Assembly (NCBI GenBank): GCA_963971285.1
Contig: OZ020248.1
Location: 9,982,001 to 10,046,000, forward strand
Direction of reading: 5' to 3'
DNA: 64,000 nucleotides
Source of the DNA: Astropecten irregularis
Lineage: Eukaryota > Echinodermata > Asteroidea > Paxillosida > Astropectinidae
In this document: one piece after another, positions 6,823 to 58,514 of the stretch
How the letters are laid out: each line of letters begins with the position of its first letter
Position numbering within the stretch: position 1 is the stretch's first letter
Notes under the pieces: generated by a model
Told to the model about the DNA's origin: nothing
Seen by the model: the letters and a program-made list of their open reading frames with translations, nothing else
Databases searched by the model: none
Translations under genes and position numbers: made by a program

Positions 6823-7338
6823 TCAGGGAAAGTCTTTGACGAAGCGACCGTTTGCGTCAGCTGTCAGACAATGCATGCGAGGAGTATCCGGCATCTCACA
6901 GGCTACAAACTTACTAATGGTGCAGGACTGAGTTGCCCACTGGCCATTAATCTTCCTGTTAAGGGTAACACATTCATCATTGTCGGGTTGCCAATTCATC
7001 CAGTTCTTGTAGGTCATTTCTCTTTTGCCGTCAGAGCATGTGAAGCTGGAGTTGGCAGATTCACGCTGGCAGTCAATCCATATGCCTGTACTGAGCTCTG
7101 TCGCAGGGGCAATTTCTTCCATCACCATCCCCCAGATGAAATCATTCTCGGCCTGTGAATTCGGCACGATGAGGCTGCCTCCTTTGCCAGCGCAGAATCG
7201 GGAGGCATCTGCCCGATTCATATGGCTCAGATACAGGGCGTAGCACGACTGGTTCCACTTTTTCCAGCCGGCAGGGCATGTTGCCACCATGGATGATATA
7301 GCCCCAATTAAAATCACACGAACAAACCAAGATGACAT
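6823..7338 (-). CDS. Secreted C-type lectin, copy 1 (171 aa)
   Basis: Single-exon gene for a small secreted C-type lectin. Residues 1-20 (starting MSSWFVRVILIG) are a signal peptide, and the mature protein starts at TCPAGWKKW. Long-form CTLD features are visible: an N-terminal cysteine pair (CPAGW...SCY), the first core cysteine in SRFCAGKGGS, IWIDC in place of the WIGL core, the QPD motif in WQPDNDEC, and the closing cysteines in SC and VACEMP. QPD predicts galactose-type specificity by family rule. The downstream WND motif is degenerate (GQWATQ), so Ca site 2 may be weakened. There is an N-glycosylation sequon at NQS and a short conserved tail after the domain (RMHCLTADANGRF). An in-frame ATG 14 codons upstream exists. 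I chose the inner one because it gives a normal signal peptide and is shared by the paralogs. A likely role is extracellular glycan recognition. Confidence 0.9.
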   Translation of the reverse strand: MSSWFVRVILIGAISSMVATCPAGWKKWNQSCYALYLSHMNRADASRFCAGKGGSLIVPNSQAENDFIWGMVMEEIAPATELSTGIWIDCQRESANSSFTCSDGKREMTYKNWMNWQPDNDECVTLNRKINGQWATQSCTISKFVACEMPDTPRMHCLTADANGRFVKDFP

Positions 7339-7765
7339 GTTTGTGAATGTCGTTCGTAAAATGCGCATTCGAAGGCACACTGAGTTTTTACTGTTCAGAT
7401 TTCAAATCAGTGAGAATAAAATTATTACTCAAAAGAGGCCTACCTCAGCACACAAATGTCAGCACCAGTAATTCACTATGCCAATGTGTGGTGTATTTCA
7501 AACCATTGACATTAGTTTGAATCATTGCTCGATCACAGTTTCAACAAAAAGTGGTTATCGGCAGCGTATGAATACTTATACAGTTCTTTCCTGACGTGGA
7601 TGAAGCAGACGTGGTTGTGGAATGTAACTGTCGGCAATCCTTCCAGAAGGAAACGTACGCAGAACACGGCAGATTGCAAGGACCAGTCACTCTGCCAAGT
7701 ATTCGATTGTTTGAAGATGCAAGACTTCAAATCTGAATGAGATTGACTCCTCAACTGATGGGAAA
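7339..7765. promoter_or_regulatory. Shared divergent intergenic region of unit 1
   Basis: 427 bp between the lectin (minus) and the small ORF (plus). It is conserved in all five paired units and so probably holds both promoters. A TATA-like box for the lectin (TATAAG on the minus strand) lies near 7575-7580. GCTGAG/GTAGGC on the minus strand near 7440-7450 is a splice-donor-like site, seen in four of the five units. Confidence 0.45.
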
Positions 7766-7975
7766 ATGAGTTTGTATAGCATGTCCGTCTTGCTGGTTTG
7801 CTGTCTAGTTACAGGAATGGTTCTGTTGGCTGTTGCATTGGTCTATACATGTATTAATTTGTGTCTCTGTGCTCCACGGCCAGGTATCTCGTATTACGTG
7901 CTCACAATTTTGCCACGTATTGCAAACCTGTTGTCTACGTGTGAATTCGTCAAGATTCTTTCAAGCGATGTGTAA
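7766..7975 (+). CDS. Small hydrophobic protein, divergent partner of lectin copy 1 (69 aa)
   Basis: Unrecognised protein. Residues 1-32 form one hydrophobic signal/anchor segment starting MSLYSMSVLLVCCLVTGMVL. A variable middle follows, and the C-terminus is CEFVKILSSDV. The same N-terminus and a similar EF-V/I-KI-x-x-S-D/E end occur at 12,871, 41,873 and 52,610. The internal segment changes length, yet the frame joining the two ends is kept in these four copies, which argues for a translated product. The start context (AAAATGAG) is favourable, with A at -3. It could also be the first exon of a longer gene, but no conserved donor was found. Cell-surface or secreted location is inferred from the hydrophobic N-terminus only. 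Confidence 0.5.
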   Translation: MSLYSMSVLLVCCLVTGMVLLAVALVYTCINLCLCAPRPGISYYVLTILPRIANLLSTCEFVKILSSDV

Positions 7976-8313
7976 TTCTTTACTCTGGCCGTGTCTATTG
8001 GTGTTTGTCTTGAATTTTTAGTGAAGAGACGTGACATCAAGCCTGTAAAGTGTCCATGAGTTTGTCCGTTCAGCTGCACGAAAAAGTTGCACAATGTACA
8101 ACATAATACAGAAACTGACGTGGACCCACTAGAAATTTAGTCTACTGAACGAGAATGGTGAATTGTTAGGGCTCTTTTGTTTCATTTTGTCACGACTGAA
8201 AAACTACGTTGACCAATAATAATTAGAGGCGTGTCGTGTGTGTCAGGCTCAGGCTCGTGTCTACTTGGTCAGACTCTCATATTATCTACACGTGGTTGGT
8301 GGTTATTACCGTT
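7976..8313. other. Unit 1 sequence downstream of the small ORF
   Basis: Non-coding and paralogous to 13,072-13,321 continued by 35,002-35,090. It contains the string CCAATAATAATTAGAGGCGT at about 8213-8232, which is the empty site for the Helentron inserted in unit 2. GTT at 8311-8313 is the left copy of the target duplication of the transposon that follows. Confidence 0.7.
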
Positions 8314-11972: not shown

Positions 11973-12446
11973 TCATACAATACATGCGATATCCGGCATC
12001 TCACAGGCAACAAACCTACGCTGAATGCAGATCTGAGCGGTCCATTTGCCACCAGCACGCCTTGAAATGGCGACACATTCATCATTGTCGGGTTGATCAG
12101 CCTTCCAGTTCTCGTAGGTCATTTCTCTTTTGTCGTCAGAGCACGTGAAGCTGGAGTCGGCAGATTCACGCTGGCAGCCGATCCATATCCCTTTGCTCAG
12201 CTCTGTCTCAGGGGCAATTTCTTTCATCACCATCCCCCAGATGAAATCATTCTCGGCCTGTGAATTCGGCACGATGAGGCTGCATCCTTTGCCAGCGCAG
12301 AATCTTGAGGCATCTGCCCGATACATAGGGCTCAGATACAGGGCATAGCACGACAGGTTCCACTTTTTCCAGCCGTCGGGGCATGTATCCACCATGGATG
12401 ATAAAGCTCCAATTAAAATCACACGGACAAACCAAAACAGTGACAT
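11973..12446 (-). CDS. Secreted C-type lectin, copy 2, with frameshifted short tail (157 aa)
   Basis: Same architecture as the other copies: signal peptide MSLFWFVRVILIGALSSM, mature start near TCPDGWKKWNLSCY, QPD in DQPDNDEC, degenerate WND (GKWTAQ) and last core cysteine in VACEMP. Three oddities are visible. First, the loop between QPD and the closing cysteine (AISRRAGGKWTAQICIQRR) differs at most positions from copy 3 although the flanking kilobases are almost identical. Second, AGKGC replaces AGKGG, adding an unpaired cysteine. Third, a 4-nt deletion at about 11,987-11,990, relative to copies reading GCGAGGAATATCC, shifts the frame after MPDI. The conserved TADANGRF tail is lost and the protein ends ACIV. 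The lectin fold itself is complete, so it may still be functional. Confidence 0.85.
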   Translation of the reverse strand: MSLFWFVRVILIGALSSMVDTCPDGWKKWNLSCYALYLSPMYRADASRFCAGKGCSLIVPNSQAENDFIWGMVMKEIAPETELSKGIWIGCQRESADSSFTCSDDKREMTYENWKADQPDNDECVAISRRAGGKWTAQICIQRRFVACEMPDIACIV

Positions 12447-17206: not shown

Positions 17207-17359
17207 ATGTCATTTGATTCCCTGTGTACAGATAGACTGGTGTACATTAAAAAAAGGAATATTAAAACAAAATATGAGTATGATATTTGTTCCGATGATT
17301 GTTGTGTAGTCACATGTTCATGTATTCTTGTTTGTTTTTGTTTTTGTTTTTTGCAGAAG

Positions 17360-20300
17360 ATGGTCAAGACAAAGAAACCTGCAGGCCAGGGTGTCTCCTG
17401 GTGTTTGATTCCTTCCCTGAAGTTGGCACCTCTTCAGGGAAGACACATGCCTAGTAGGCATTGTGCAAACCAGCTGGCACACAAACAGCGTGTGTTCGTA
17501 CTCCGAGATCTTGTGGGTCAGTGTACTCGCAGTTCTCATTACGAGGGTACTGGGAGCAGTGTCTCCTTCAGCTTGATTGAGGCTTATCAAAGGTGTAACT
17601 ATGGTTCGAGCAGCGGCTTTATTAGCTTTTTGAGTAGCAATCTGTTGAGGCTTAATCTGAGGCTTAATGATCAAAAATCAAGAAAGTGTGCAGAGATGCA
17701 CCATGCGGCTCTATTGAGGCTTAATCTGAGGCTTGATGATGAACAATCAAGAAAGAATGCAGAGAAGGAGAATGAGGCAGGAATGAAGAAGAGGAAGATA
17801 AGTAAAACGAGTGTCAAGCATAAAGTAAGTAGTCACAAAGCAGTGGACAAGTTGAAGAGAATGAGTAAGACATGTTGTAGCAGGAATGGGGTTTTGGAGT
17901 GTGTTGTGGAATATTGTAAAGATGAAAGGAAAGTTTCCAAACCAAGTGAAAAGAAAAGAAGAAGATACGAACAGAGGCAAAGCTTGAGAAGGCGAAGAAA
18001 TGGTAAATTAATTGAATTATATGTCAGTAAGGAAGAGAGAGAGAAACGTAAAGATTTGCAGCAAAACATTCAGAGTCACACAAGAAGAAGTCTGATGTAT
18101 ATTATCAAGAAGTTGGATAAGCAGAAAGATACAAGGAAAGATGGCAAGAATGTAAGGATAGATGGGGTATTGAATCAGAAGAAAACTAAATGCAAGTGGT
18201 CCAATAGTGGAAGAGACAGTAAATCAGAACATAAATTGCATGAGAAAAGTTCTGCCAAGGAGATCAAGGTCAATAATACAGCTCATTGTGTGGAAGAAAC
18301 TAAACTTACGTCATGTTGGCTATGTGATCAAGTGATATATGCAAGTGGAGTAGATAGAGTTGTGAAATGTGATACTTGTTGTACCTGCTATCATGTGACA
18401 TGTGCTGGATTTTTGAGAACAATGTTAACCCTAGGAAGTAAATCACTGTCATGGCTATGTTCAAAGTGTGGTAGATGTTCTTACACTGATTGTTTGTTAT
18501 TTGATTTTGGTACTCCAGTAGATGAAAACAAGTTTGAGATGGACGATGTACCTGTTATTGCTGTATCAAATCCAGAACATGATTCATATTGGGAAGATCA
18601 TGATGACTGCTTGAACCTGAATGAACATGAAGGTGAGACACAAAAGGGTATCATTCCAAAAGGGTATGTGAAAGAGCAGATAGTAGTGCAATCTGGTGGA
18701 TATTCACTAAGGAGCAAGACAAAAATGGACAGTCAGATTACTTCTAATAGTGACAAGCAAGCTGCAGTGGATAAAGAGGTTAAAAAGAAGAAAACATCAC
18801 GGGTCTCTGCCAGACATAGTGGAACAGCTAGTGATGCTAGTATGAATCAAACATGTTCAGAGGAAATAAATAGTTGTAAATATACACTAAGAAGTAGGAA
18901 AGTAAAAATGGGGATTGTTGATGAACAAGATACATGTAGTAATGAGAAAATGAAGTCGAAAAGAAAACATGAAGAAAATGGACAAAGTAGTTGTATAGAT
19001 AATGAGAGTAGGAAGAAAGTAAGAGGTCATACACACAGAATAGTTAATTCTGGCATGAACACTTTGAAGACAGACAATCATGATGATGTAGAGATTTGTA
19101 AACATATCAGTATTGTTCAAGGAAGTTTCCATCAAGGTCATCAGAGATTTGCTGAACTGGCCGGGAGACAGTGTGTTTGCATGAGCTTATGTGGAATTCT
19201 TTATAGCCAAATCAAGAATTTGAAAATGTGGTGTTTGAAAGATATGGATTTTGTGTTGAATACTGGAAATGAATTGTACAGATATTTGAGTCATAGCTCA
19301 ACAATGATGAATGAATATTTATTGATAAGTGAATTGCCGGATGAAATTGATGCATTTGGTAAAATGTTCCATTTGAAAGTTCATGAATCTATTTCCGGTA
19401 CATTTGGAGAGGCATCTCTGACTGAATTTAATATGATTTCACTGAATAGAGGAATAGAGCAGACCATTCAGAAATATGGTGCATGTTTTATTTGTTTCCA
19501 TGGAAATACCTTTGTTGTAATTTCTCAGGATGGAATGTATTTTATTTTTGATTCACACTCTAGAAATGAACAAGGGCATCAAGATAGCGAAGGCAAAAGC
19601 TTGCTGAAATGTGTGTCATCGTGGAAAGGTGTATACAGGTATTGTGTTGAACTTGCAAAATCTATGAATTTGAGTGATACTGAACAATATGAAATAACAG
19701 GAATCTCAATATGGATTGATGATAATAAAGATTATGAATGTCATGATATTGATGAAAGTGTTAATAGAGTGGATTTACACACCGATATCAAAAATGCAGA
19801 AGACAGTGGAAGTGATGTTGAAATAGTAGGAATAAATCATCCAACCAATTTGAAAGTTGCTCCGCTAACTGATAATAACAGGAGAGCATTGTGTCAGAAA
19901 TTGGGTTTGATCAAGAATTGTTTGGGAAGTAAGGAGAATATTGTACAATGTGACAACATGGGTCGACCTGATTGTGTTAAGAGAATTCAAGGTGATGGAA
20001 ATTGCTTTTTTAGAGCTGTATCCTATGCTGTATCTGGATCTGAAAGTAATCATATGCAACTCAGAAGTATGACCGTGAATCACTTATTGGATAATTCAGC
20101 TAGATTCCAATGGTTAATAAGAGAGGAATACGCAACAGTGCAAAATTATGTAAGTAGATCAGCAATGTTGAACAGTGGTACATGGGCTACTGAAGTAGAA
20201 ATCATGGTCATGGCTAACTTATTGAATGTGGTTATATATACATACAGTGTGGATAGATGGTACATGTTTACTGGTATGTTATCTCGTGGTCATGGATTAT

Positions 20301-22123
20301 CAGAATCAGGTATTTATTTGTATCACAGAGGACAGGTTCATTATGATGTAGTTAAGAGTGTTCATGAGTTAATTACTGAATCAATTGAGAATATTTCTAG
20401 ACATGGTACTGACCAAATACCAATAGCTAATACTAATAGTAGCTGTGATAATGTGAAGAAGACAGACTCAGAATTAGAGAAGCCAAAGCAATGCCAGAAG
20501 AAACCACGTAAACGTGTCAATTATAGGATGAGATGCAAACTGCAAAGAGAGAAAGCCAGAGAAAACTATAAAAAAATGACTGAAAAAATGAGTTATGCAG
20601 CCAGAAAGAAACAGAAATATCATGAGGATGTAGCATATAGAACCAAAAAAAAAATGAATTCAAGACTAAAATATCAAAATGATAGTATGTACCGAGAGAA
20701 GAAGCTTAAAAATACTAAGTTGAGGTATCAGGAAGATGATGCACATAGACAAAGAAAGGTCCGCAATGTTAAGATAAGGTATCAGGAAGATGATGCACAT
20801 AGACAAAGGAAGGTCCAAAATGTTAAGATGAGGTATCAGGAAGATGATGCACATAGACAAAGGAAGGTCCGCAATGTTAAGATAAGGTATCAGGAAGATG
20901 ATGCACATAGACAAAGGAAGGTCCAAAATGTTAAGATAAGGTATCAGGAAGATGATGCACATAGACAAAGGAAGGTCCAAAATGTTAAGATAAGGTATCA
21001 GGAAGATGATGCACATAGACAAAGGAAGGTCCGCAATGTTAAGATAAGGTATCAGGAAGATGATGCACATAGACAAAGAAAGCTATCTCATGATAAAATG
21101 AAGTATAAGCAAGATGATGCTCATAGAAAGAGAAAGATTTCAAGTGCAAGAAATAAATATGAAGATGTAAAAAGCAGGGAAAGAAAACTGAATGCGTTGA
21201 GAACCACATATTACAACAATGATGTATACAGACAAAAGAAAATTGACTTAGCAAAGAAGAAGTATCATTCCAAACCAGCATATAGAAATGCTCTTATTCA
21301 GTCAATCAAAAAGAAGTATTTTTGTAATTTGAATTATAGGAGAAAAGTGAGAAATTATCAGAAGTTCAAATATTGTGTTGATGCTGGATATCGCAACAAA
21401 TTGAAGCGTACTAATATGTTACGGAGGATGAGACGTAAGAAGATGGCTTGCATTATGAAGAATGTAATGATGAATTGGAAGAAAGAAATTTCTACAGGAC
21501 CTGAGTATACATGTGCTGTTTGTTGTAAACTTTTATTCAAGAATCAAGTTATAAGATGTAACAAAGACAAATACAGTAATGCTGAATGTATATCTGAAAA
21601 TTATCTTGCTTCATATTTGTGGATCTGTTACACTTGCCATAGGAAATTACTCCAGAAGAAAATACCTGCAGAAAGTTGGATTAATAATTTGAAATTGGTT
21701 GACATCCCTAAGGAGTTGAGATGTTTGAATATATTAGAAGAACATTTGATTTCAATTAATATACCATTTGTCAAGATGATTGCATTGCCAAGAGGAGGGC
21801 AGCATGGTGTTCATGGTCCAGTTGTATGTGTGCCATCAAATATAACAAATACACTAACGGCATTGCCAAGATGTAACAACACTGATGAGTTAATCAGAGT
21901 GAAGTTGAAGAGAAAATTATCTTATAAAGGATATTATCAGTATCAACTAGTGAACAGGAGTAATGTCGAAAATGCATTGCATTATCTTAAGGAGAATAAT
22001 ATTTGGTATAAAGACATTGAAGTGAATGATGAGTGGGTAAATCCATTATTGGATGATGATGATGAATTAATAGAAGAAGAAAGTACAACAGAAGCTTCAG
22101 GAGGAGGAGTCAGATGGAAGTGA
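17360..22123 (+). CDS. Helentron protein, N-terminal part: PHD-like finger, OTU protease, basic repeats, DUF6570-like region
   Basis: First segment of the transposase-helicase gene. A T-rich tract ending TTTTTTGCAG at 17,356 looks like a splice acceptor immediately before AAGATGG, so I take the ATG at 17,360; an open frame extends back to an ATG at 17,207. Domains in order: K/R-rich leader with a duplicated LLRLNLRL motif (17.64-17.77 kb); a PHD-type zinc finger (18,311-18,495, CWLC...CDTC..CYHVTC...WLCSKC); an OTU-type cysteine protease (19,980-20,360) with GDGNCFFRA (Asp and Cys) and QVHYDVV (His), all three catalytic positions present; lysine-rich 18-residue repeats (about 20.5-21.4 kb); a CxxC zinc ribbon (CAVCCK...CYTC, 21.5-21.66 kb); and a DUF6570-like stretch (MIALPRGGQHGVHGPVV, VKLKRKLSYKGYY). 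The frame ends at TGA 22,121-22,123 after SGGGVRWK. The acidic linker continues in another frame, so a small indel in the GGAGGAGGAG run at about 22,100 separates it from the next segment. Confidence 0.9.
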   Translation: MVKTKKPAGQGVSWCLIPSLKLAPLQGRHMPSRHCANQLAHKQRVFVLRDLVGQCTRSSHYEGTGSSVSFSLIEAYQRCNYGSSSGFISFLSSNLLRLNLRLNDQKSRKCAEMHHAALLRLNLRLDDEQSRKNAEKENEAGMKKRKISKTSVKHKVSSHKAVDKLKRMSKTCCSRNGVLECVVEYCKDERKVSKPSEKKRRRYEQRQSLRRRRNGKLIELYVSKEEREKRKDLQQNIQSHTRRSLMYIIKKLDKQKDTRKDGKNVRIDGVLNQKKTKCKWSNSGRDSKSEHKLHEKSSAKEIKVNNTAHCVEETKLTSCWLCDQVIYASGVDRVVKCDTCCTCYHVTCAGFLRTMLTLGSKSLSWLCSKCGRCSYTDCLLFDFGTPVDENKFEMDDVPVIAVSNPEHDSYWEDHDDCLNLNEHEGETQKGIIPKGYVKEQIVVQSGGYSLRSKTKMDSQITSNSDKQAAVDKEVKKKKTSRVSARHSGTASDASMNQTCSEEINSCKYTLRSRKVKMGIVDEQDTCSNEKMKSKRKHEENGQSSCIDNESRKKVRGHTHRIVNSGMNTLKTDNHDDVEICKHISIVQGSFHQGHQRFAELAGRQCVCMSLCGILYSQIKNLKMWCLKDMDFVLNTGNELYRYLSHSSTMMNEYLLISELPDEIDAFGKMFHLKVHESISGTFGEASLTEFNMISLNRGIEQTIQKYGACFICFHGNTFVVISQDGMYFIFDSHSRNEQGHQDSEGKSLLKCVSSWKGVYRYCVELAKSMNLSDTEQYEITGISIWIDDNKDYECHDIDESVNRVDLHTDIKNAEDSGSDVEIVGINHPTNLKVAPLTDNNRRALCQKLGLIKNCLGSKENIVQCDNMGRPDCVKRIQGDGNCFFRAVSYAVSGSESNHMQLRSMTVNHLLDNSARFQWLIREEYATVQNYVSRSAMLNSGTWATEVEIMVMANLLNVVIYTYSVDRWYMFTGMLSRGHGLSESGIYLYHRGQVHYDVVKSVHELITESIENISRHGTDQIPIANTNSSCDNVKKTDSELEKPKQCQKKPRKRVNYRMRCKLQREKARENYKKMTEKMSYAARKKQKYHEDVAYRTKKKMNSRLKYQNDSMYREKKLKNTKLRYQEDDAHRQRKVRNVKIRYQEDDAHRQRKVQNVKMRYQEDDAHRQRKVRNVKIRYQEDDAHRQRKVQNVKIRYQEDDAHRQRKVQNVKIRYQEDDAHRQRKVRNVKIRYQEDDAHRQRKLSHDKMKYKQDDAHRKRKISSARNKYEDVKSRERKLNALRTTYYNNDVYRQKKIDLAKKKYHSKPAYRNALIQSIKKKYFCNLNYRRKVRNYQKFKYCVDAGYRNKLKRTNMLRRMRRKKMACIMKNVMMNWKKEISTGPEYTCAVCCKLLFKNQVIRCNKDKYSNAECISENYLASYLWICYTCHRKLLQKKIPAESWINNLKLVDIPKELRCLNILEEHLISINIPFVKMIALPRGGQHGVHGPVVCVPSNITNTLTALPRCNNTDELIRVKLKRKLSYKGYYQYQLVNRSNVENALHYLKENNIWYKDIEVNDEWVNPLLDDDDELIEEESTTEASGGGVRWK
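20723..21100 (+). repeat. 54-bp in-frame tandem repeat, 7 near-identical copies
   Basis: Each 54-bp unit encodes 18 residues of the form RYQEDDAHRQRKV-R/Q-NVKI. The seven core copies alternate between two variants (CGCAATG and CAAAATG), suggesting duplication of a two-unit block. Diverged units of the same 18-residue spacing flank it on both sides (about 20,560-20,720 and 21,100-21,400), with the core Y-x3/4-D-x-x-Y/H-R-x-K-K. Confidence 0.95.
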
Positions 22124-22142
22124 TGATGAAACAAATGATCGT

Positions 22143-23921
22143 TTGTGTGGTTTTGCTTTGGATACATGCTTACAACCTGTAGATATTGCACAAGAAATAC
22201 TTGATCAACATTTTGATGATGTACTTAATATAGCACCTTGTGAAGGAAATAATCCTGTCAGAGTGTTGATGGAAGAAGGTAATGAGGCTAAATGTTTCCC
22301 TGCATTGTTTCCATCAGGAAATCCAATCTTTAATGATGATCGACCAGTGGCTATTACACTATCAAGATATTTCCTAAATAGATTGATGAATGCTGATAAT
22401 AGATTTGCACAGAATATTCAGTACATCTTTTATGCACAGTATCTGTCCGAAGTTCAAAATGTAATGTCAAAAGTTTCAATTGCAATGCGTCAAAGTTCTG
22501 GAAGAAATAGAAATATTGCTAAATTGGGAGCTGGAATGATTAAAAACAAAGAGCAGTTGAATGAAATTTTACAGTCTGACAGTGGTTACAAATTCTTGAA
22601 ACCAATTAGAGGTACACCACCCTATTGGCAATCAGCCCAGAGAGATGTCATGGCTATGATTAGACAACTTGGAATACCAACATGGTTTTGCTCATTTTCT
22701 GCTGCTGATATGAGATGGCCTGAAGTTATAAATACACTACTGAGGCAACAGGGAGATTTAAGAAAAATCGAAGGTTTGGATTGGAATGAAAAATGCTTGA
22801 TATTACGAAGTAATCCTGTGACTGTAGCAAGAATGTTTGATCGGAGATTTCATACATTTCTAAAGAATGTCATTTTGTCACCTGCGAATCCTGTTGGAAA
22901 GGTCAAAGATTATTTTTACAGAGTTGAATTTCAGCAAAGAGGCTCTCCACATACTCACTGTTTATTTTGGATTGAGAATGCTCCTCAAATTGAAGTGGAT
23001 ACAGATAATGAAGTTACAACATTTGTTGATAGATATGTTAGTTGCAAGTTGCCATCAAAGGAAGAAGATGAGGAATTAAATGATATTATAAGTCATGTTC
23101 AGATGCATAGTAAGAAACATTCTAAATCTTGTAGAAAGAAGGGAACAGAGTGTAGATTCAACTTTCCAAGACCTCCATCTGTCAGAACTTTTATAACAAA
23201 ACCAACCCCAGCAACTAATTATGCAGTCAATAATAAGAGTTCTTATACAGGAGAGAATGAATTTGATGATGATAATGACCTTGATGAAAATGATTGCAGT
23301 GATAGTGATTGTACTGAGGATATAGATGAAGATACATGTATTGATGACAATGAGAGAGGTAAAAGAAATAATAGAAAGAAGCTTGATCAAGCAAAAGCAT
23401 TACTGAAATCTGTTTGGGAGGCTATACAAAATGAGAACAATGCAAACATGTCAACCATAGAGCTGTTTAAAAGTATTAATATTACACAGACTGATTTTAA
23501 GAAGGCTCATGATCTTTTAACTACAAAGCATGGTATAATAATGAAAAGAGAACCTCAAGATGTTTGGGTTAATCAATACAATTCTGATTTGATAAGATGT
23601 TGGAATGCTAATATGGATATTCAATTTATTTGTGATGAATATGCATGTGCAGGTTATGTTGTTTCTTACATGTCTAAATCTGAGCGTGAGATGAGCCAGC
23701 TATTATCAAATACACAAAGTGAAGCAAGGAAGGGTAATATGGATGCTAAGAGTAGTATGAGGGAACTTGGATGTGTATACTTGCATAATCGTGAGGTATG
23801 TGCTCAAGAAGCAGTGTTTCGTGTTTGCAGTTTGCGATTAAAAGAAGGCTCAAGAAAAGTGGAGTTTATTCCTGTTGGAGAGAATCCAGTAAGAATGAGT
23901 TTGCCATTGAGTGTCATTTAG
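22143..23921 (+). CDS. Helentron protein, middle part: Helitron_like_N / HUH Rep endonuclease
   Basis: Second segment of the same gene; the start given is only the first ATG, and the frame is open further upstream. The region from about 22,380 (QYIFYAQYLSEVQ) to 23,060 has the Helitron_like_N signature, including GTPPYWQSAQRDVMAMI and PTWFCSFSAADMRW. The HUH metal motif is H-T-H at 22,950-22,958 within RGSPHTHCLFW. The candidate catalytic tyrosines lie in YACAGYVVSYMSKS (about 23,640-23,683). An acidic low-complexity stretch (DDDNDLDENDCSDSD and following) splits the Rep from the tyrosine motif. The REVCAQEAVFRVCSL block typical of the Rep-helicase junction follows. The frame ends at TAG 23,919-23,921 inside conserved sequence, and the next segment continues in the same frame, so this is a nonsense codon rather than the natural end. 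Confidence 0.88.
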   Translation: MCGFALDTCLQPVDIAQEILDQHFDDVLNIAPCEGNNPVRVLMEEGNEAKCFPALFPSGNPIFNDDRPVAITLSRYFLNRLMNADNRFAQNIQYIFYAQYLSEVQNVMSKVSIAMRQSSGRNRNIAKLGAGMIKNKEQLNEILQSDSGYKFLKPIRGTPPYWQSAQRDVMAMIRQLGIPTWFCSFSAADMRWPEVINTLLRQQGDLRKIEGLDWNEKCLILRSNPVTVARMFDRRFHTFLKNVILSPANPVGKVKDYFYRVEFQQRGSPHTHCLFWIENAPQIEVDTDNEVTTFVDRYVSCKLPSKEEDEELNDIISHVQMHSKKHSKSCRKKGTECRFNFPRPPSVRTFITKPTPATNYAVNNKSSYTGENEFDDDNDLDENDCSDSDCTEDIDEDTCIDDNERGKRNNRKKLDQAKALLKSVWEAIQNENNANMSTIELFKSINITQTDFKKAHDLLTTKHGIIMKREPQDVWVNQYNSDLIRCWNANMDIQFICDEYACAGYVVSYMSKSEREMSQLLSNTQSEARKGNMDAKSSMRELGCVYLHNREVCAQEAVFRVCSLRLKEGSRKVEFIPVGENPVRMSLPLSVI

Positions 23922-23951
23922 AAGAAATCAGAAGATGATGAAGATATATTT

Positions 23952-26714
23952 ATGACAAGTCGAATTGATCGTTATAAAGCAAGACCGGATATTGATACAT
24001 TTGAAAACATGTGCCTTGCAACGTTTTCTTCACATTATAGAGTAATTTATAATGCAAAGACATGTAAGAAATCAAGAGAATCACAAATATTCACTTTGAA
24101 AAATGGATTGGGTCACATACAGAAACGTACACGAACTGAAGCAGCAGTCATAAGATATCCACGGTTTTCAACAACCAAATACCCTGAAAAATTCTACCAT
24201 AGTTTACTGCAGTTGTTCCTTCCATATCGCCTAGATGTTCAATTGAAGCCAGAACAGTTTGAGACTTATGAAGACTTTTATACAAATGGAGCTGTTTCTT
24301 TAAATGGTAAAATGGTATCAGTTAGTGTAACAGTTGAAAGGAATCGTTCTAAGTATGAGAAGAATGTTGAGAAGCTTGAAGCAGCAGAAAATTATCTAGA
24401 AAAATTTGGTGTACATGAGGATGCATGGGCTTTAATTTGTCCAGCAACTGAGCAAGAAAGACTTGAATGTAAAGAAGAAAGACAACAAGTTGAAGATGAT
24501 CATGAAGAATGTGCTATTCCAGATTTGCAATCAAATAACAAAGACAAAATATATAATATTGAACCACATCCTGCTAAAATATCAAAGCGAGATGCATTGC
24601 CTTTATTAAGATCATTAAATGTACAGCAGAAGAAGGTTTTTAACAAGATTCGCAATTGGTGTTTAGAAAAGATTAATGGAGGAAATCCTGAACCATTTCA
24701 TGTATTTCTCACTGGTGGAGCTGGAACTGGGAAAAGCCATTTAATAAAGTGTATATATTATGAAGCAACACGATTATTTTCAAGAATGAATTATAATCCT
24801 GACAATGAATCAATACTAATTACTGCACCTACTGGAGTTGCTGCTTTTAATATCAATGGAAGTACAATTCATAGTGCATTGTCAATTCCTACAGATGCAA
24901 GATTGCCTTATCAACCTCTTGGTGATGAGAAATTGAATACCTTAAGAGCTATACTGCAAGATATTCAAATTATGATTATTGATGAGATATCAATGGTTGA
25001 TCATAAGATGCTTTGTTATATTCATGGGCGCCTACGTCAAATAAAGCAAATTAGAGATGATAGCAAGGTTTTTGGAAATATCAGTATTTTAGCTGTTGGT
25101 GACTTCTATCAATTGCCCCCAGTAAAAGGAAAGGCTTTGTATAACATGAATGTAACAGTAGATCTGTGGAATGATTACTTTCAGAAAACTGAATTAACAA
25201 CAATTATGAGACAGAAAGAAGACGTGCAGTTTGCAGAAACTTTGAATAGATTACGTGTAAGATCCAAGCAGGATAAAATACAGAATGAAGATGTAGCAAT
25301 ATTACAATCACGAGAGACAGGAGAAGATTGGGATGATGCATTACATATATTTCCATGTAACAAACAAGTGGATGAATATAATTTGAAAATGTTGTTTGCA
25401 AAGTGTACTGAATGTAAATGTATTTTATCAAATGATTTCCAGAGAGATACGGGTCATAGTAAGAAAAGTGGAGGACAGAAAGTGCCAAAGAAAGCAATTT
25501 ATACCAATTTACCAGAGTCATTATGGCTAGGTATCGATGCAAGAGTCATGTTAACCAAAAATATTGATGTGTCAGATGGACTTGTTAATGGAGTAATGGG
25601 AACTGTGTCTGCAATTACAATGTTACCGGATAATTCTTCTCCAAAATGTGTGCATATTCATTTTGACAATAACAATATTGGAATGAAATTGAAAAGGAAA
25701 TGTCAATCGCCAGTGAATGATGAGACTGTTATAATTGAGAGAGCAGAAGAAAATATGACAAAAAAGTGGATGCGACGTCAATTTCCTCTGAAATTAGCAT
25801 GGGCTTGTACAGTTCACAAAGTGCAAGGATTGACAACTAAGAAAGCAGTAGTGTCATTGAAACGTACATTCTCATCAGGTCAAGCTTATGTTGCAATGAG
25901 TCGAGTAACATCACTTAATGGACTTATAATTGAAGGCTTTGATGAAAAGTATATATATTGTAATAGATCAATTCATGCTTCATTGAGTAACATGTCACAT
26001 TTTATTAATGAAAGTAATGAAAGCACAGAACCCTTGCAGGACACAGTAATCATGATGCATAATATTCAAGGATTGAAGGAACACTTTGAAGACCTAAAAT
26101 GTAACAGAGATTTTATAGCATCAGATTTCATTTGTTTAGCAGAAACATGGATTGATGATGAGTTATGCAGTGACACAGATTTAACAGGATATAAATGTTA
26201 TCATCAGATCAGAAGTCTTTCATATAATGATTCAAGCAGCAGAACACACAATTTGCAACAACAGTGTCATGGAGGAGTAGCTGTATATGTGAAGAGGAAC
26301 AGGACTTGCAGTAGACTAAGATTAGATGTCATGAATATTGAGTATATTGCATTACAGGTCATTTCTGAAATTTCGTTTTGTTTAGTGATAATTTATCGTC
26401 CAGCATCATATTGCATCAAGACATTTATTAATAATTTTGATCATCTCCTTGATGAAATTCACAGAGTGTCCAACAGATGCATCATATTGGGTGATTTCAA
26501 TGAAGATATTTCAAAAGGAAGTTCACATGTTGAAAGATTAATGCGAATCAAAGGCTATGGGCAATATGTCACAAATACAACAACTGAAGGTGGTACTTTG
26601 ATTGATCACGTGTATGTTAGACATTTGGATCATGTACATGCTGATGTAATTCCTACATACTACAGTTACCATGAAGGCATTAGAATCACAATGAGAAATG
26701 ATGTACATCTATGA
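23952..26714 (+). CDS. Helentron protein, C-terminal part: Pif1-type helicase and EEP endonuclease
   Basis: Continues in frame after the TAG at 23,919, so the ATG used here is nominal. The junction region includes RYKARP and ENMCLATF. Pif1-family SF1B helicase motifs are complete: Walker A GGAGTGKSHL (about 24,715), Walker B IMIIDEISMVD (about 24,970), AVGDFYQLPPV, NGVMGTV, WACTVHKVQGLT and YVAMSRVTSLNGL. An endonuclease/exonuclease/phosphatase domain (26,040-26,690) follows, with HNIQGL, LAETW, IIYRP, LGDFNED and TLIDHVYV. The last motif reads YYSYHEGI where many EEP nucleases have S-D-H. The His is present but the Asp is Tyr, which could reduce activity or be a family variant. The natural stop is TGA at 26,712-26,714. 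Helicase plus EEP fusion is the hallmark of Helentron/Helitron2 elements. Confidence 0.9.
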   Translation: MTSRIDRYKARPDIDTFENMCLATFSSHYRVIYNAKTCKKSRESQIFTLKNGLGHIQKRTRTEAAVIRYPRFSTTKYPEKFYHSLLQLFLPYRLDVQLKPEQFETYEDFYTNGAVSLNGKMVSVSVTVERNRSKYEKNVEKLEAAENYLEKFGVHEDAWALICPATEQERLECKEERQQVEDDHEECAIPDLQSNNKDKIYNIEPHPAKISKRDALPLLRSLNVQQKKVFNKIRNWCLEKINGGNPEPFHVFLTGGAGTGKSHLIKCIYYEATRLFSRMNYNPDNESILITAPTGVAAFNINGSTIHSALSIPTDARLPYQPLGDEKLNTLRAILQDIQIMIIDEISMVDHKMLCYIHGRLRQIKQIRDDSKVFGNISILAVGDFYQLPPVKGKALYNMNVTVDLWNDYFQKTELTTIMRQKEDVQFAETLNRLRVRSKQDKIQNEDVAILQSRETGEDWDDALHIFPCNKQVDEYNLKMLFAKCTECKCILSNDFQRDTGHSKKSGGQKVPKKAIYTNLPESLWLGIDARVMLTKNIDVSDGLVNGVMGTVSAITMLPDNSSPKCVHIHFDNNNIGMKLKRKCQSPVNDETVIIERAEENMTKKWMRRQFPLKLAWACTVHKVQGLTTKKAVVSLKRTFSSGQAYVAMSRVTSLNGLIIEGFDEKYIYCNRSIHASLSNMSHFINESNESTEPLQDTVIMMHNIQGLKEHFEDLKCNRDFIASDFICLAETWIDDELCSDTDLTGYKCYHQIRSLSYNDSSSRTHNLQQQCHGGVAVYVKRNRTCSRLRLDVMNIEYIALQVISEISFCLVIIYRPASYCIKTFINNFDHLLDEIHRVSNRCIILGDFNEDISKGSSHVERLMRIKGYGQYVTNTTTEGGTLIDHVYVRHLDHVHADVIPTYYSYHEGIRITMRNDVHL

Positions 26715-26740: not shown

Positions 26741-28432
26741 GTAAACTTTCATTGCTGGAAATCAGTGTCATCTAAAACCATCAAATACCTTGCAGACCTA
26801 GTGACTAATATTCTTATTGCCACCCACGTGGATGGAAGTCAGTGTCATTTAAAGCCCTTTAATTCCTTGCAGACCTAGTGACTAATATTCTTATTGTCAC
26901 CCACATGGCTGGAAGTCAGTGTCATCTAAAGCCCTTTAATTCCTTGCGGACCTAGTGACTATTATTCTTATTGTCACCCACATGGCTGGAAGTCAGTGTC
27001 ATCTAAAGCCCTTTAATTCCTTGCAGACCTAGTGACTATTATTTTTATTGTCACCAACATGGCTGGAAGTCAGTGTCATCTAAAGCCCTTTAATTCCTTG
27101 CAGACCTAGTGACTAATATTCTTATTGTCACCCACATGGCTGGAAGTCAGTGTCATCTAAAGCCCTTTAATTCCTTGCAGACCTAGTGACTATTATTTTT
27201 ATTGTCACCAACATGGCTGGAAGTCAGTGTCATCTAAAGCCCTTTAATTCCTTGCAGACCTAGTGACTAATATTCTTATTGTCACCCACGTGGCTGGCAG
27301 TCAGTTTCATCTCAAGCCCTTTAATTTCGTGCGGACCTAGTGACTATTATTCTTATGTCACCCACATGGCTGGAAGTCAATGTCATCTAAAGCCCTTTAA
27401 TTCCTTGCGGACCTAGTGACTAATATTCTTATTGTCACCCACATGGCTGGAAGTCAATGTCATCTAAAGCCCTTTAATTCCTTGCAGACCTAGTGACTAT
27501 TATTCTTATGTCACCCACATGGCTGGAAGTCAATGTCATCTAAAGCCCTTTAATTCCTTGCGGACCTAGTGACTAATATTCTTATTGTCACCCACATGGC
27601 TGGAAGTCAGTGTCATCTAAAGCCATCATCTTCATTGTGGACCTAGTAGTTATTATTGCAACCCTCATGGCTGGCAGTCAGCTAAAGCCATCATCTTCCT
27701 CTAGACCTAGTGACTATTAGTGCCACCCTCATGGCTGGAAGTCAGTGTCATCTAAAGCCATCATCTTCCTTGTGGACCTAGTGGCTATTATTTCCACCAT
27801 CATGGCTGGAAGTCAGTGTCATCTAAAGCCATCATCTTCCTTGTGGACTTAGTGGCTATTATTTCCACCATCATGGCTGGAAGTCAGTGTCATCTAAAGC
27901 CATCATCTTCCTTGTGGACCTAGTGGCTATTATTGCCACCATCATGGCTGGAAGTCAGTGTCATCTAAAGCCATCATCTTCCTTGTGGAGGTAGTGGCTA
28001 TTTTTGCCACCATCATGGCTAGAAGTCAGTGTCATCTAAAGCCATCATCTTCCTTGTGGAGGTAGTGGCTATTATTGCCACCATCATGGCTGGAAGTCAG
28101 TGTCATCTAAAGCCATCATCTTCCTTGTGGAGGTAGTGGCTATTATTGCCACCATCATGGCTAGAAGTCAGTGTCATCTAAAGCCATCATCTTCCTTGTG
28201 GAGGTAGTGGCTATTATTGCCACCATCATGGCTAGAAGTCAGTGTCATCTAAAGCCATCATCTTCCTGGTGGACCAAGTGGCTGTTATTGCCACCCTCAT
28301 GGCTTGAAGTCAGCTAAAGCCATTACCTTCCTTGTGGACCTAGTGACTATTATTGCCACCCTCATGGCTGGCAGTTAGCTAAAGCCATCACCTTCCTTGT
28401 GGACCTAGTGACTATTATTGCCACCCTCAATG
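26741..28432 (+). repeat. Minisatellite of about 77-bp units (roughly 22 copies) inside the Helentron
   Basis: Units read GTCACCCACATGGCTGGAAG, then TCAGTGTCATCTAAAGCCCT, then a GACCTAGTGACTA tail. A clean 77-bp step is seen (for example 26,834 to 26,911). The distal half shifts to a second variant with CCATCATCTTCCTTGTGG. It starts within about 30 bp of the EEP stop codon. Stop codons occur in the units, so it is non-coding. Confidence 0.95.
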
Positions 28433-40901: not shown

Positions 40902-41416
40902 TCAGGGAAAGTCTTTGGCGAAGCGACCGTTTGCGTCAGCTGTCATACAATACATGCGAGGAGTATCCGGCATCTCACAGGCCACAAACTTAGTGCCAAA
41001 GCAGGGCTTCGCCTTCCACTTGCCATTACTATTCTTGTTAAGGGTGACACATTCATCATTGTCGGGTTGCCCACTTTTCCAGTTCTTGTAGGTCATTTCT
41101 CTTTTGCCGTCAGAGCACGTGAAGCTGGAGTCGGCAGATTCACGCCGGCAGTCGATCCATATCCCTTTGCTCAGCTCTGTCGCAGGGGCAATTTCTTCCA
41201 TCACCATCCCCCAGATGAAATCATTCTCGGCCTGTGAATTCGGCACGATGAGGCTGCCTCCTTTGCCAGCGCAGAATCGGGAGGCATCTGCCCGATACAT
41301 AGGGCTTAGATACAGGGCGTAGCACGACTGGTTCCACTTTTTCCAGCCGTCGGGCATGTATCCACCATGGATGATATAGTCCCAATTAAAATCACACGAA
41401 CAAACCAAGATGACAT
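40902..41416 (-). pseudogene. C-type lectin, copy 4, 1-nt frameshift between signal peptide and CTLD
   Basis: The start codon at 41,416 opens the usual signal peptide (MSSWFVRVILIG type). At about 41,351-41,354 the run that reads GTCGGGGCATG in intact paralogs is GTCGGGCATG. The missing base throws the CTLD (from DGWKKWNQSC onward) out of frame with the signal peptide. The CTLD itself is otherwise open and complete: IWIDC, SGQPDNDEC, GKWKAKPC, VACEMPDTP and the TADANGRF tail. A start in the CTLD frame (ATG at 41,408) exists but gives no signal sequence. Either a very young pseudogene or a sequencing error in a homopolymer. The rest of the gene shows no decay. Confidence 0.75.
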
Positions 41417-44827: not shown

Positions 44828-45346
44828 TTAGTCATCTTTGACGAAGCGACCGTTTGCGTCAGCTGTCATACAATGCATGCGAGGAGTATTCGGCATCTCA
44901 CAGGCCACAAACCTACTCTTAGTGCAGAGCTGAGTAGCCCAGTGGCCACCAGATTTCTTTTGAAACATGACGCATAAATCATTTTGGGGTTGCCCATCTC
45001 TCCAGTTCTTGTAGGTCATTTCTCTTTTGCCGTCAGAGCACGTGAAGCTTGAACCGGCAGATTCACGCTGGCAGTCGATCCATATCCCTTTGCCCAGCTC
45101 TGTCGCAGGGGCAATTTCTTCCATCACCATCCCCCAGATGAAATCATTCTCGGCCTGTGAATTCGGCAAGATGAGGCTGCCTCCTTTGCCAGCGCAGAAT
45201 CGGGAGGCATCTGCCCGATTCATACGGCTCTGATACAGGGCGTAGCACGACTGGTTCCACTTTTTCCAGCCGGCAGGGCATGTGGCATGCACCATGTATA
45301 AAATCATCCCAATAAAAAACAATTGACCGATTAACCAAGGTGACAT
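44828..45346 (-). CDS. Secreted C-type lectin, copy 5 (172 aa, QPQ variant)
   Basis: Belongs to the second subgroup, with signal peptide MSPWLIGQLFFIGMILYMVH and mature start TCPAGWKKWNQSCY. The core is otherwise standard (SRFCAGKGGS, IWIDC, VACEMP, TADANGRF tail). The sugar motif reads GQPQNDLC instead of QPDND. Loss of the Asp in QPD plus the absent WND (GHWATQ) should abolish classical Ca-dependent galactose binding, so the ligand may differ. The frame is open about 45 codons further upstream, but the signal peptide and the paralogs support the ATG at 45,346. No divergent small ORF is found upstream; this distinguishes copies 5, 6 and 8 from the rest. Confidence 0.9.
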   Translation of the reverse strand: MSPWLIGQLFFIGMILYMVHATCPAGWKKWNQSCYALYQSRMNRADASRFCAGKGGSLILPNSQAENDFIWGMVMEEIAPATELGKGIWIDCQRESAGSSFTCSDGKREMTYKNWRDGQPQNDLCVMFQKKSGGHWATQLCTKSRFVACEMPNTPRMHCMTADANGRFVKDD

Positions 45347-48811: not shown

Positions 48812-49330
48812 TTACGGCAGGTCTTTGACGAAGCGACCGTTTGCGTCAGCTGTCATACAATGCATGCGAGGAGTATCCGGCATCTCACAGGCTACAAACC
48901 TTCTCCAAGTGCAGGACTGAGCCCCCCATCTGCCGCCAGCAAGCTTGTGAAAGGCAACACAGTCATCATTGTCGGGTTGCCCATTCATCCAGTTCTCGTA
49001 GGCCATTTCTCTTTTGCCGTCAGAGCACGTGAAGCTGGAGTTGGCAGATTCACGCTGGCAGTCGATCCATATCGGTTTGCTCGGCTCTGTCGCAGGGGAA
49101 ATTGCTTCCAGCACCACCCCCCAGATGAAATCATTCTCGGCCTGTGAATTCGGCACGATGAGGCTGCCTCCTTTGCCAGCGCAGAATCGGGAGGCATCTG
49201 CCCGATTCATAGGGCTTAGATTCAGGGCGTAGCACGACTGGTGCCACTTTTTCCAGCCGGCTGGGCATGTCGCGTGTGCCTTGCATAAAATAGTACCAAC
49301 TAATATCAGACGAGTCAACCAAGATGACAT
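48812..49330 (-). CDS. Secreted C-type lectin, copy 6 (172 aa)
   Basis: Signal peptide MSSWLTRLILVGTILCKAHA, mature TCPAGWKKWHQSCYALNLSP. The NQS sequon of the other copies is lost (HQS). CTLD features are complete: SRFCAGKGGS, FIWGVVLEAISPATEPSKPIWIDC, NGQPDNDDC, GRWGAQSC and VACEMPDTP, with the TADANGRFVKDLP tail. QPD is present; WND is reduced to W-G-A. Substitutions in the EAISPATEPSKP segment make it the most distinctive copy outside the main variable loop. The ATG at 49,330 is chosen for the signal peptide; the frame is open nine codons further to another ATG. No partner ORF is seen upstream. Confidence 0.9.
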   Translation of the reverse strand: MSSWLTRLILVGTILCKAHATCPAGWKKWHQSCYALNLSPMNRADASRFCAGKGGSLIVPNSQAENDFIWGVVLEAISPATEPSKPIWIDCQRESANSSFTCSDGKREMAYENWMNGQPDNDDCVAFHKLAGGRWGAQSCTWRRFVACEMPDTPRMHCMTADANGRFVKDLP

Positions 49331-51611: not shown

Positions 51612-52136
51612 TTAATCATCTCTGGGAAAGTCTTTGACGAAGCGACCGTTTGCGTCAGCTGTCAGACAATGCATGCGAGGAATATCCGGCATCTCACAGG
51701 CCACAAATCTACGGTTAGCGCAGGACTGATCACCCCACTTGCCACCAGCATTCTTCACAATGGTGACGCATTCGTCTTTGTCGGGCCGCCCCTTTTTCCA
51801 GTTCTCGTAGGTCATTTCTCTTTTGCCGTCAGAGCACGTGAAGCTGGAGTCGGCATATTCACGCTGGCACTCGATCCATATCCCTTTGCTTAGCTCTGTC
51901 GCAGGGGCAATTTCTTCCATCACCATCCCCCAGATGAAATCATTCTCGGCCTGTGAATTCGGCACGATGAGGCTGCCTCCTTTGCCAGCGCAGAATCGGG
52001 AGGCATCTGCCCGATTCATAGGGCTCAGATACAGGGCGTAGCATGACTGGTTCCACTTTTTCCAGCCGTCGGGGCATGTTGCCACCATGGAGGATACAGT
52101 CCCAATTAAAATCACACGGACAAACCAAGATGACAT
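51612..52136 (-). CDS. Secreted C-type lectin, copy 7 (174 aa)
   Basis: Signal peptide 1-20 (MSSWFVRVILIGTVSSMVAT). Cysteines at about 21, 32, 49, 90, 101, 123, 139, 147 and 157; C49-C147 and C123-C139 are the expected core disulfides, C21-C32 the long-form hairpin, and C90-C101 an additional pair. The sugar motif at 117-119 reads R-P-D (GRPDKDEC) rather than QPD, and position 134 onward is KWGDQSC. Here an Asp two residues after W may partly restore the WND ligand. Sequon NQS at 29. The tail RMHCLTADANGRFVKDFPRDD is intact. It pairs divergently with the small ORF at 52,610. Confidence 0.9.
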   Translation of the reverse strand: MSSWFVRVILIGTVSSMVATCPDGWKKWNQSCYALYLSPMNRADASRFCAGKGGSLIVPNSQAENDFIWGMVMEEIAPATELSKGIWIECQREYADSSFTCSDGKREMTYENWKKGRPDKDECVTIVKNAGGKWGDQSCANRRFVACEMPDIPRMHCLTADANGRFVKDFPRDD

Positions 52137-55594: not shown

Positions 55595-55599
55595 TTAAT

Positions 55600-56790: not shown

Positions 56791-57459
56791 TAATTTCAGT
56801 CAGTTTCCATTTTTTTTTTGAATATTGCCATAAATCGATTGGTATTATGTCACCCAACTTTACCAATAACATTTTGAATTTCAGAATCTAAAAAATACAT
56901 ATTAACCTTTAATGAAATAATTATGTTTTGAAGCCGAAAAAGTATCCACATTTTAAAATGTTTCCGGTTTTTTTTTTCAAAATACATATCCTTCCAATAA
57001 TTATACTAGTGAAATTTATCTAAAAGAATTTCACGGTTTTTTTATTTTTCAAAAAATTCAAATATATTTATTGTGTTAAATCAAATTTCACTAAATTGTT
57101 CCATTGCTTACAGCTAGTTTATTCCTAATATAAAAGTAACACTAAAGTATAATGAACAAGTTTTGAAACAAAAAAAAGGCACGCATCAAATTTATCTTTT
57201 CATATTCACAACGACTAGCCAATATACTTCAAATATTGCTAGCTTTTTGCATTTGATGAACACACAATCAAAAATAAAAACCGGAAATTAAATGTTAATC
57301 CAATGATCTTGTAGCTTGCAATGTTTGGTTTATTATTTCAAATGACAAGAAATGTCATGTCTGTGGATCACACATAGAATGTCATCTGCAATGATTCGGT
57401 AGTAGAATGTTATCCAAAGCATTAAAATGTGCGTGTTTTGCTTCAGAGAAATTACACGG

Positions 57460-57903
57460 TATAAACAGGGTGTTCAAAAAACCGCACTTGTGTCGAGAAC
57501 TATTATATGCAAATTAAACTGTTTATTACTTCAAGATTCAGATATGTGATACAACCATGTTTCGGCTATCACCATGTAGAATTTGAGCAAAATTGAACTT
57601 AAATTGAGTGAAAAAGTAACACTGAATTATCCAACCTCAAAACCCGATTTTCATCTTTCTGTCATATACATTATGTGTGTATTGACCAATATTCGTGTGA
57701 TCCTTGCAAATTTGTTTTTAAGGAGTATTCTTTCAATTGGTCATATTTTCGCCAATTTCAGCCCCAATATGCTTAAATTCTATATGGTGATAGCCAAGAC
57801 ATGGCTGTATCACATCTCTGAATCTTGAAGTGATAAACAGTTTAACTAATTAACACAATGGGTCCCAACACAGTGTTGCGTTTTTTCTGGGACACCCTGT
57901 ATA
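57460..57903. mobile_element. 444-bp mariner-like MITE
   Basis: TATAAACAGGGTGTTC at the left and GGGACACCCTGTATA at the right, flanked by TA. Subterminal arms also pair (GATTCAGATATGTGATAC with GTATCACATCTCTGAATC). The ACAGGGTGTCCC type end and TA target fit Tc1/mariner-related non-autonomous elements. The 81-codon frame inside is not transposase-like. Confidence 0.75.
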
Positions 57904-57992
57904 ATGTAGTATCTGGTTTTCCTTTTCGACATTCTTAAAATCCGTAATGTCAGTCATTTTATGGTCGTCGTATACGTTCTTAATCATAATCT

Positions 57993-58514
57993 TTACGGCA
58001 AGTCTTTAAAGAAGCGACCGTTTGCGTCAGCTGTCAGACAATGTATGCGAGGAATATCCGGCATCTCACAGGCCACCCATTTACCGGAAATGCAGGGCTG
58101 AGCTCCCCATTTGCCACCAGCATACTTGTGAAAGACGACGCATTCGTCACTGTCGGGTTGGCCATTCATCCAGTTCTCGTAGGTCATTTCTCTTTTGCCG
58201 TCTGAGCATGTGAAGCTGGAGTCGGTAGATTCACGCTGGCAGCCGATCCATATCGCGCTGCTCGGCTCTGTCGCAGGGGCAATTTCTTCCATCACCATAC
58301 CCCAGATGAAATCATTCTCGGCCTGTGAATTCGGCACGACGAGGCTGCCTCCTTTGCCAGCGCAGAATCGGGAGGCATCTGTATGCTTCATACGGCTCAG
58401 ATACAGGGCGTAGCATGACTGGTTCCACTTTTTCCAGCCGGCAGGGCATGTGGCATGCACCATGTATAAAATCATCCCAATGAAAATCAATCGAATGATG
58501 AACCAAGGTGACAT
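57993..58514 (-). CDS. Secreted C-type lectin, copy 8 (173 aa)
   Basis: Signal peptide MSPWFIIRLIFIGMILYMVH, then TCPAGWKKWNQSCY; nearest relative in signal and promoter DNA is copy 5. CTLD complete: KHTDASRFCAGKGGS, AIWIGC (closest of all copies to the WIGL core), NGQPDSDEC, GKWGAQPC and WVACEMPDIP. QPD intact, WND reduced to W-G-A. The tail reads RIHCLTADANGRFFKDLP. It starts only about 90 bp from a mariner-like MITE on its 3' side. No small ORF partner. Confidence 0.9.
   Translation of the reverse strand: MSPWFIIRLIFIGMILYMVHATCPAGWKKWNQSCYALYLSRMKHTDASRFCAGKGGSLVVPNSQAENDFIWGMVMEEIAPATEPSSAIWIGCQRESTDSSFTCSDGKREMTYENWMNGQPDSDECVVFHKYAGGKWGAQPCISGKWVACEMPDIPRIHCLTADANGRFFKDLP

Follow-up and report, generated by a model that had tools for sequence, protein, structure and literature searches.

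Concerted evolution with a divergence peak at a selected site is described for opsin exon 5, alongside conversion-fed diversity of major histocompatibility complex (MHC) and plant R genes, in PMC3924837, and in sea urchins the SpTransformer (Sp185/333) genes are clustered, diversified effector genes with recombination-like restructuring (PMC13428168). Here we describe C-type lectin genes of the starfish Astropecten irregularis, centred on a window of 64,000 bp (contig OZ020248.1, here C11, positions 9,982,001–10,046,000) that contains eight copies of a C-type lectin domain (CTLD) gene, all on the minus strand (tblastn); the genome searched comprises 475.7 Mb in 168 contigs. Like the SpTransformer genes, the arrays to which these copies belong are echinoderm, clustered and diversified. 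SpTransformer diversity is an element mosaic in a different protein, whereas the lectin diversity lies in patches on the CTLD. Diversity-generating retroelements (DGRs) target C-type lectin folds, and in the phage and bacterial proteins that they diversify the variation lies on the ligand side of the fold; unlike those targets, the present array is eukaryotic and its variation is not limited to adenines. A constant framework and a variable segment filled from related donors are also features of the variable lymphocyte receptors (VLRs) and of avian immunoglobulin conversion, although here no loop-only donors were found with the one loop used as query (copy 8, 40 scored matches).

Low divergence over most of the gene and a local peak at the functional site under conversion characterise the opsin exon 5 type (PMC3924837), which the lectin genes resemble; the lectin peak, though, is repeated across several separate arrays of a gene with a single exon, and parts of the ~400 bp lectin exon are nearly unlinked. 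The mechanism is probably this known divergence-peak model (PMC3924837), applied to a lectin and operating in several arrays simultaneously. We consider it fairly probable that these are secreted single-exon lectins under frequent short-tract conversion, with selection maintaining the divergence peak at the loop. The literature searched (open-licence papers) yielded no account of lectin arrays of this kind in echinoderms.

Silent and replacement divergence along the lectin exon

Each window gene is a single exon of ~170 residues with a signal peptide, a C-type lectin domain and a short tail ending near ADANGRF. The Pfam family Lectin_C (PF00059) was matched in all four of the eight copies that were scanned (E values 1.9e-13 to 2.5e-16; 51.5–60.8 bits against a curated cut-off of 22.6), and a 129-residue core aligns across all eight without gaps. 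A protein search of the genome (150 scored of 816 first-look candidates) identifies at least 50 close copies of this family above 200 bits, in clusters on C11 at 2.46–2.48, 9.99–10.09, 11.22–11.28 and 11.57–11.64 Mb; C11 3.78 Mb and C10 have a single further copy each, and C8 has three. Four copies with less than 2% difference from another were set aside, leaving 46 distinct copies, and the fragment L057, which has no readable loop, is excluded from every family count. By reading, 46 of the 50 keep an open frame from the signal peptide across the domain to the tail motif. An open-frame script passes 41, and five of the nine that it set aside deviate only in one letter of the tail motif.

The preliminary description of the window had noted a variable loop in these eight copies, and the codon alignment bears this out. 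With the loop defined as the 30–32 codons from after NW up to the closing Cys, the 28 pairs of window copies have a silent divergence (pS) of 0.100 and a replacement divergence (pN) of 0.055 in codons 1–89, rising to 0.341 and 0.296 in codons 90–120, with 0.265 and 0.060 in codons 121–129; loop silent divergence is thus 3.4 times that of the scaffold. The corresponding pS and pN values for the 46 distinct copies are 0.154 and 0.092 (scaffold), 0.412 and 0.352 (loop) and 0.288 and 0.065 (last nine codons), and among their 1035 non-independent pairs the loop exceeds the scaffold in pN in 99.6% and in pS in 96.5%. In 12-codon windows across the 46 copies, pS has its minimum of 0.023 near columns 29–40 and its maximum of 0.535 in the loop, and there is a smaller peak near columns 57–68 (pS 0.28, pN 0.22). 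The claim that diversity is confined to one loop does not hold, because there is a second, smaller variable patch at alignment columns 53–72, just before the WIGC strand (pS 0.26–0.28, pN 0.18–0.22).

In the eight window copies, divergence is mostly 0.3–0.6 in the flanking DNA and ~0.2 in the signal-peptide stretch; because the wider flanks differ so much, the oddity lies as much in the uniform scaffold as in the variable loop. More than rapid amino-acid change is thus involved: the DNA of the loop is old or foreign, and that of the domain scaffold is exceptionally uniform. The low silent divergence of the scaffold does not reflect codon constraint, because the same residues use different codons between arrays. 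Within the most uniform segment, identical residues have different codons at 7 of 12, 8 of 10 and 8 of 11 positions between C11 and three other arrays, and at 8 of 14, 9 of 13 and 8 of 13 between C11 and three further genes; the one pair compared within C11 has none in 26, and C1 and C17 differ in only 6 of 18. Silent sites outside the peak are uniform yet free to vary, which is one mark of concerted evolution. Pairs located on different chromosomes are still close in this segment (pS 0.057, 171 pairs), reflecting either dispersal or exchange between chromosomes.

A joint pS and pN peak recurs in the lectin arrays C1, C17 and C25, and with a weaker silent contrast in C29. The control loci numbered 80; one had no open frame, one C29 locus with N was dropped, and L121–L132 (12 of the 80 loci, 11 with a frame) entered the motif counts only. 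Loop pS is higher than pre-loop pS in 360 of 378 pairs in C1 (28 distinct genes of 40), in 12 of 15 in C17 (six distinct of eight) and in 120 of 153 in C29 (18 distinct of 19 clean reads). C25 has the joint peak in two groups, of 10 and 7 genes; there the patch ahead of the WIGC strand is pronounced too, equalling the loop in the second group; a second variable patch at this position is present in C1 and C17 as well. The signal peptides of C1, C29 and C23 vary at silent and replacement sites alike, so the uniformity belongs to the domain scaffold and not to the whole 5' end.

Genealogies and probable loop exchange

Loop and scaffold have different histories. The loop data reject the scaffold tree (approximately unbiased test, p-AU 6e-55) and the scaffold data reject the loop tree (3e-110), and the correlation between scaffold and loop distances is only 0.099 in C11, 0.052 in C1 and 0.082 in C29, values as low as these being reached in none of 100 shared-tree simulations for each array. 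The C11 value is for the commoner loop length (34 copies); over all 43 copies used it is 0.486, because the loops come in two lengths that differ. The two halves of the scaffold are weakly linked too, with correlations of 0.144 in C11 (0 of 100 simulations) and 0.073 in C1 (1 of 100); that of C29 (0.092, 17 of 100) is not significant. Peak and remainder differ in genealogy, a second mark of concerted evolution. Copies L054–L056 were left out of the correlation tests and of the pairwise homoplasy index (PHI) tests, and L041 and L043 out of the PHI and per-codon tests described below.

Copies 2 (window positions 11973–12446, loop 12015–12104) and 3 (36774–37301, loop 36870–36959), both on the minus strand, differ at 33 of 90 loop nucleotides. 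Their 3' flanks are 1.5–5.5% different at 60–700 bp past the core and their 5' flanks 8–13% different, with gaps, and longer blocks are 92.4% identical over 1281 bp that include the gene, and 86.9% identical over 980 bp; the kilobases of near-identical flank previously attributed to this pair thus stand for ~0.5 kb and are elsewhere about 87–92% identical. Although both flanks of copy 2 resemble those of copy 3, its nearest loops are those of L022 and L029, 1.25–1.28 Mb away, and it differs from L022 at only 10 of 90 loop positions; L022 lies 1.28 Mb off and its flanks are 28–59% different. We chose this and three other exchange cases by eye. L032 combines the flanks of L034 with L031's loop; it also resembles L031 in the nearest 200 bp downstream (13%) but not in the other flanks. 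In L013 the flanks are those of L015, while the loop is closer to that of L016; and L023 shares its 5' side with L011, its nearest loop being on another chromosome. In C1, two genes are 1.1% apart before the loop and 32% apart within it.

Broader comparisons of loop and flank divergence point the same way. Relative to mean flank divergence in the 34 pairs with both flanks alignable, the loop is more divergent in 29 (14 of them significantly) and the scaffold less divergent in 30, and of 19 pairs with both flanks alike, 16 differ more in the loop than in the flanks. Nine independent pairs of flank sisters have a flank divergence of 0.037 and a loop pS of 0.147 (p 3e-8). Chimera scans are mixed in outcome. 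In a strict scan, 22 copies were eligible and for eight of them a foreign loop is closer, three at nominal p<0.05 and none after Bonferroni correction; strict flank limits give two loop recipients and no scaffold recipient among 22 eligible copies, and loose gap costs give five nominal cases among 32, none after Bonferroni correction.

The preliminary description had offered focal diversifying selection or conversion with homogenisation elsewhere as explanations. The second is supported by the low silent divergence of the scaffold at sites that are free to vary and by the differing genealogies of loop and scaffold, and also by some loops whose closest counterparts sit in genes with largely unrelated flanks, with the qualification that no single donor survives correction. 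The donor fragments that it proposed to seek elsewhere in the genome were looked for with the copy 8 loop only; of 41 candidates, 40 were scored and each falls on a known copy of the family, so that no loop-only donor was found with this query.

Proposed selection and conversion, and alternative explanations

Under the reading that we prefer, conversion between paralogues would hold the domain scaffold, with part of the tail, close to identity across clusters, silent sites included, and would shuffle pieces of the ~400 bp exon so that its parts acquire nearly independent genealogies. Selection would favour copies that differ in the stretch that begins with the QPD motif and ends with the closing cysteines, so that homogenising events there would be lost; variant loop segments could then persist and pass between genes, giving a divergence peak at silent and replacement sites together. 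The outcome would be a germline repertoire, of ~50 variants in the window family, on one scaffold. We infer conversion, and not unequal crossing-over, as the agent.

Positive codons (per-codon likelihood test, p<0.1) number 18 of 95 in loops and 8 of 273 in scaffolds (Fisher 1.7e-6); array by array, they are 7 of 32, 7 of 30 and 4 of 33 in the loops, and 7 of 95, 1 of 90 and 0 of 88 in the scaffolds. Loop pN/pS is 1.09 in C1 and 1.13 in C29. We use the per-codon result as supporting evidence only, since recombination makes such tests lenient; together with these ratios it supports diversifying selection as a partner of conversion.

Several observations weigh against this interpretation. All of the results rest on one genome. 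The region-wide ratio of replacement to silent change (w) in the loop is below 1 in the window family, at 0.87 for the window's eight copies and 0.79 for the 46, and the per-codon test, written by us, uses trees that are incorrect because of recombination, so false positives are possible. In C29, 33 of 153 pairs do not have a higher loop pS, and C23 (18 distinct genes of 20; 119 of 153 pairs used) has a pN peak with little pS contrast. PHI gives p values of 0.99 for the C11 exon, 0.27 for the C11 scaffold, 0.65 for the C11 loop and 0.63 for C1, C29 (p 0.04) being the sole significant set of five; we attach greater weight to the genealogical test, since PHI contrasts neighbouring with distant sites and is disturbed by the strong difference in rate that separates loop from scaffold. 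Flank distance correlates with loop distance (Spearman 0.27 upstream and 0.41 downstream) and about as strongly with scaffold distance (0.37 and 0.33). The scaffold pS of the nine flank-sister pairs, 0.048, is not below their flank divergence of 0.037, so homogenisation is visible between distant copies and not between sisters. Finally, no loop donor passes Bonferroni correction among the 22 eligible copies of the strict chimera scan, and in the scaffold controls a foreign copy is closer in 7 of 22 and 11 of 22 cases, about as often as for the loop, though none of these reaches p<0.05. The results against exchange lower our confidence in the conversion reading somewhat and make the neutral alternative described next somewhat more likely.

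The alternative that survives best, which we regard as unlikely but worth serious attention, is a neutral runaway in which the loops became old and divergent by chance, their mismatches block conversion, and the remainder is homogenised with no selection on the loop. It would account for the high loop pS and for a region-wide w below 1 in the window family, and silent sites at an invariant loop Cys (column 107) are near random, with a pS of 1.04. It does not sit well with the concentration of positive codons in the loops and the pN/pS ratios of C1 and C29, nor with a peak at the homologous place in separate arrays; in addition, some genes whose flanks are mostly unrelated have similar loops, which does not look like blocked exchange.

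An extension of the conversion reading, in which the uniform parts of the exon flanking the loop serve as homology anchors and loops are continually swapped among the genes of an array, in the germline and perhaps in coelomocytes, would make the arrays a recognition system shaped for this purpose and give each animal its own loop set on a small number of fixed lectin scaffolds, an echinoderm analogue of a variable-region repertoire; we consider this distinctly improbable.

Localised hypermutation of the loop, either deaminase-like or adenine-directed as in DGRs, would lift silent and replacement changes together in one patch, as seen here, but is very unlikely given that the mutation pattern is shared with the scaffold. 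Substitution classes are alike in the two regions, as are the transition/transversion ratios (kappa) of loop and scaffold (2.29 and 2.28 in C11, 2.11 and 1.88 in C1, 1.28 and 1.49 in C29). All four bases vary in the loop and variation is not confined to adenines; heterozygosity by consensus base A, C, G and T is.437,.359,.322 and.281 in C11,.254,.179,.201 and.244 in C1, and.234,.299,.225 and.147 in C29, adenine being highest in C11 and C1 and not in C29. Diversifying selection by point mutation on the loop alone, the first of the two earlier suggestions, draws on the positive sites of the per-codon test and is hardly credible, since loop silent divergence is 3.4-fold that of the scaffold and 4-fold that of the flanks in sister pairs, and the region-wide w values are not those that focal selection alone would give; it thus fails the refuting condition that the preliminary description itself had set. 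An assembly artefact of haplotypes or collapsed copies could explain the near-identical pairs L010/L012 and L025/L026, 37.5 kb apart, as duplicated haplotypes, but is scarcely conceivable for a family in which 46 of 50 copies remain after removal of those less than 2% different, with differing flanks, mostly open frames and locations on three chromosomes.

Putative ligand site, genome context and significance

The variable patch spans the QPD end of the long loop, strands 3–4 and the closing Cys, which we take to be the usual ligand side of the C-type lectin fold, and alignments with PLA2-receptor and IgY-receptor domains put the motifs in register. Calcium-dependent sugar-binding C-type lectins have a QPD/EPN-type motif plus a WND motif. 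In the window family [QE]P[DN] is present in 28 of 46 copies and WND in 0 of 46, and because WND is absent from these copies, classical calcium-dependent sugar binding is predicted to be unlikely for this family; in array C1, WND is present in 7 of 28. The putative loop presumably binds ligand, and by analogy its role would most likely be recognition of microbes rather than of gametes or prey. AlphaFold models of the eight window proteins have a mean predicted local distance difference test (pLDDT) score of 51, too poor for mapping or for a fold search.

Lectin genes L101–L120 of C29 and L126 of C22 carry a C-terminal PAN-like part. In the two proteins scanned, L101 has a PAN domain after the lectin domain that is over the PAN_1 cut-off, and the corresponding part of L126 is just under it. 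The C29 PAN-like part is nearly invariant (pN 0.030), and by eye the window family and C1 end near where the PAN domain would start.

Six further copies lie in the window on the minus strand. Copy 1 (6823–7338, loop 6910–6999 by translation) is an open reading frame in which signal peptide, C-type lectin domain and tail form one exon and the start codon was read (Lectin_C E 4.7e-15). Copy 4 (40902–41416, loop 40989–41078) has its frame broken between the signal peptide and the lectin domain; it and copy 2, with a frameshift in its tail, are the two frame-damaged genes of the eight. The remaining copies are copy 5 (44828–45346, loop 44912–45001), copy 6 (48812–49330, loop 48899–48988), copy 7 (51612–52136, loop 51708–51797) and copy 8 (57993–58514, loop 58080–58169). 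The array continues past the window with a change of strand: in C11 9.988–10.085 Mb the eight window copies are on the minus strand and the copies listed at 10.048–10.085 Mb are on the plus strand.

Between copies 2 and 3 there is a Helitron-like element (17207–26714, plus strand) with three open frames, coding respectively for OTU and DUF6570 domains, for Helitron_like_N, and for a PIF1 helicase with an endonuclease/phosphatase domain; the first contains a row of RYQEDDAHRQRK repeats. Self-comparison reveals a tandem repeat with a period of ~71–77 bp directly after it (26750–28429), and near the left end of the window an open frame of 228 aa (218–904, minus strand) is without a Pfam match. 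Elsewhere on C11, at 11.227–11.268 Mb, two family genes are repeated 37.5 kb apart (L025/L026 and L010/L012) with a flank divergence of 0–1.3%, either a recent segmental duplication or a duplicated haplotype. Two COX1 sequences were also encountered: C131 contains an uninterrupted COX1-type frame of 552 aa in the standard code and is perhaps a bacterial contig, and a mitochondrial COX1 piece with 7 TGA at C25:9951047 is probably a nuclear insertion. In the mitochondrial contig itself, conserved COX1 positions read best with AAA as Asn and ATA as Ile, in agreement with the echinoderm code, and ARAGORN places six tRNA genes immediately upstream of COX1, four of them on the opposite strand, an order that matches that of sea stars.

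Lectin genes are very many in this genome: a Lectin_C search gave 1283 first-look candidates, and the 150 that were scored are all above the cut-off, so that the lectin count, like that of the family, is a lower bound. Invertebrates that lack lymphocytes are thought to depend on large germline families for recognition, and the arrays described here look like an inherited way to hold many recognition specificities on one scaffold. They show how a germline recognition family could remain both uniform and diverse. The silent-site data separate homogenisation of the scaffold from diversification of the loop, and several arrays in one genome provide natural replicates, so that the question of how germline repertoires resist homogenisation becomes directly testable.

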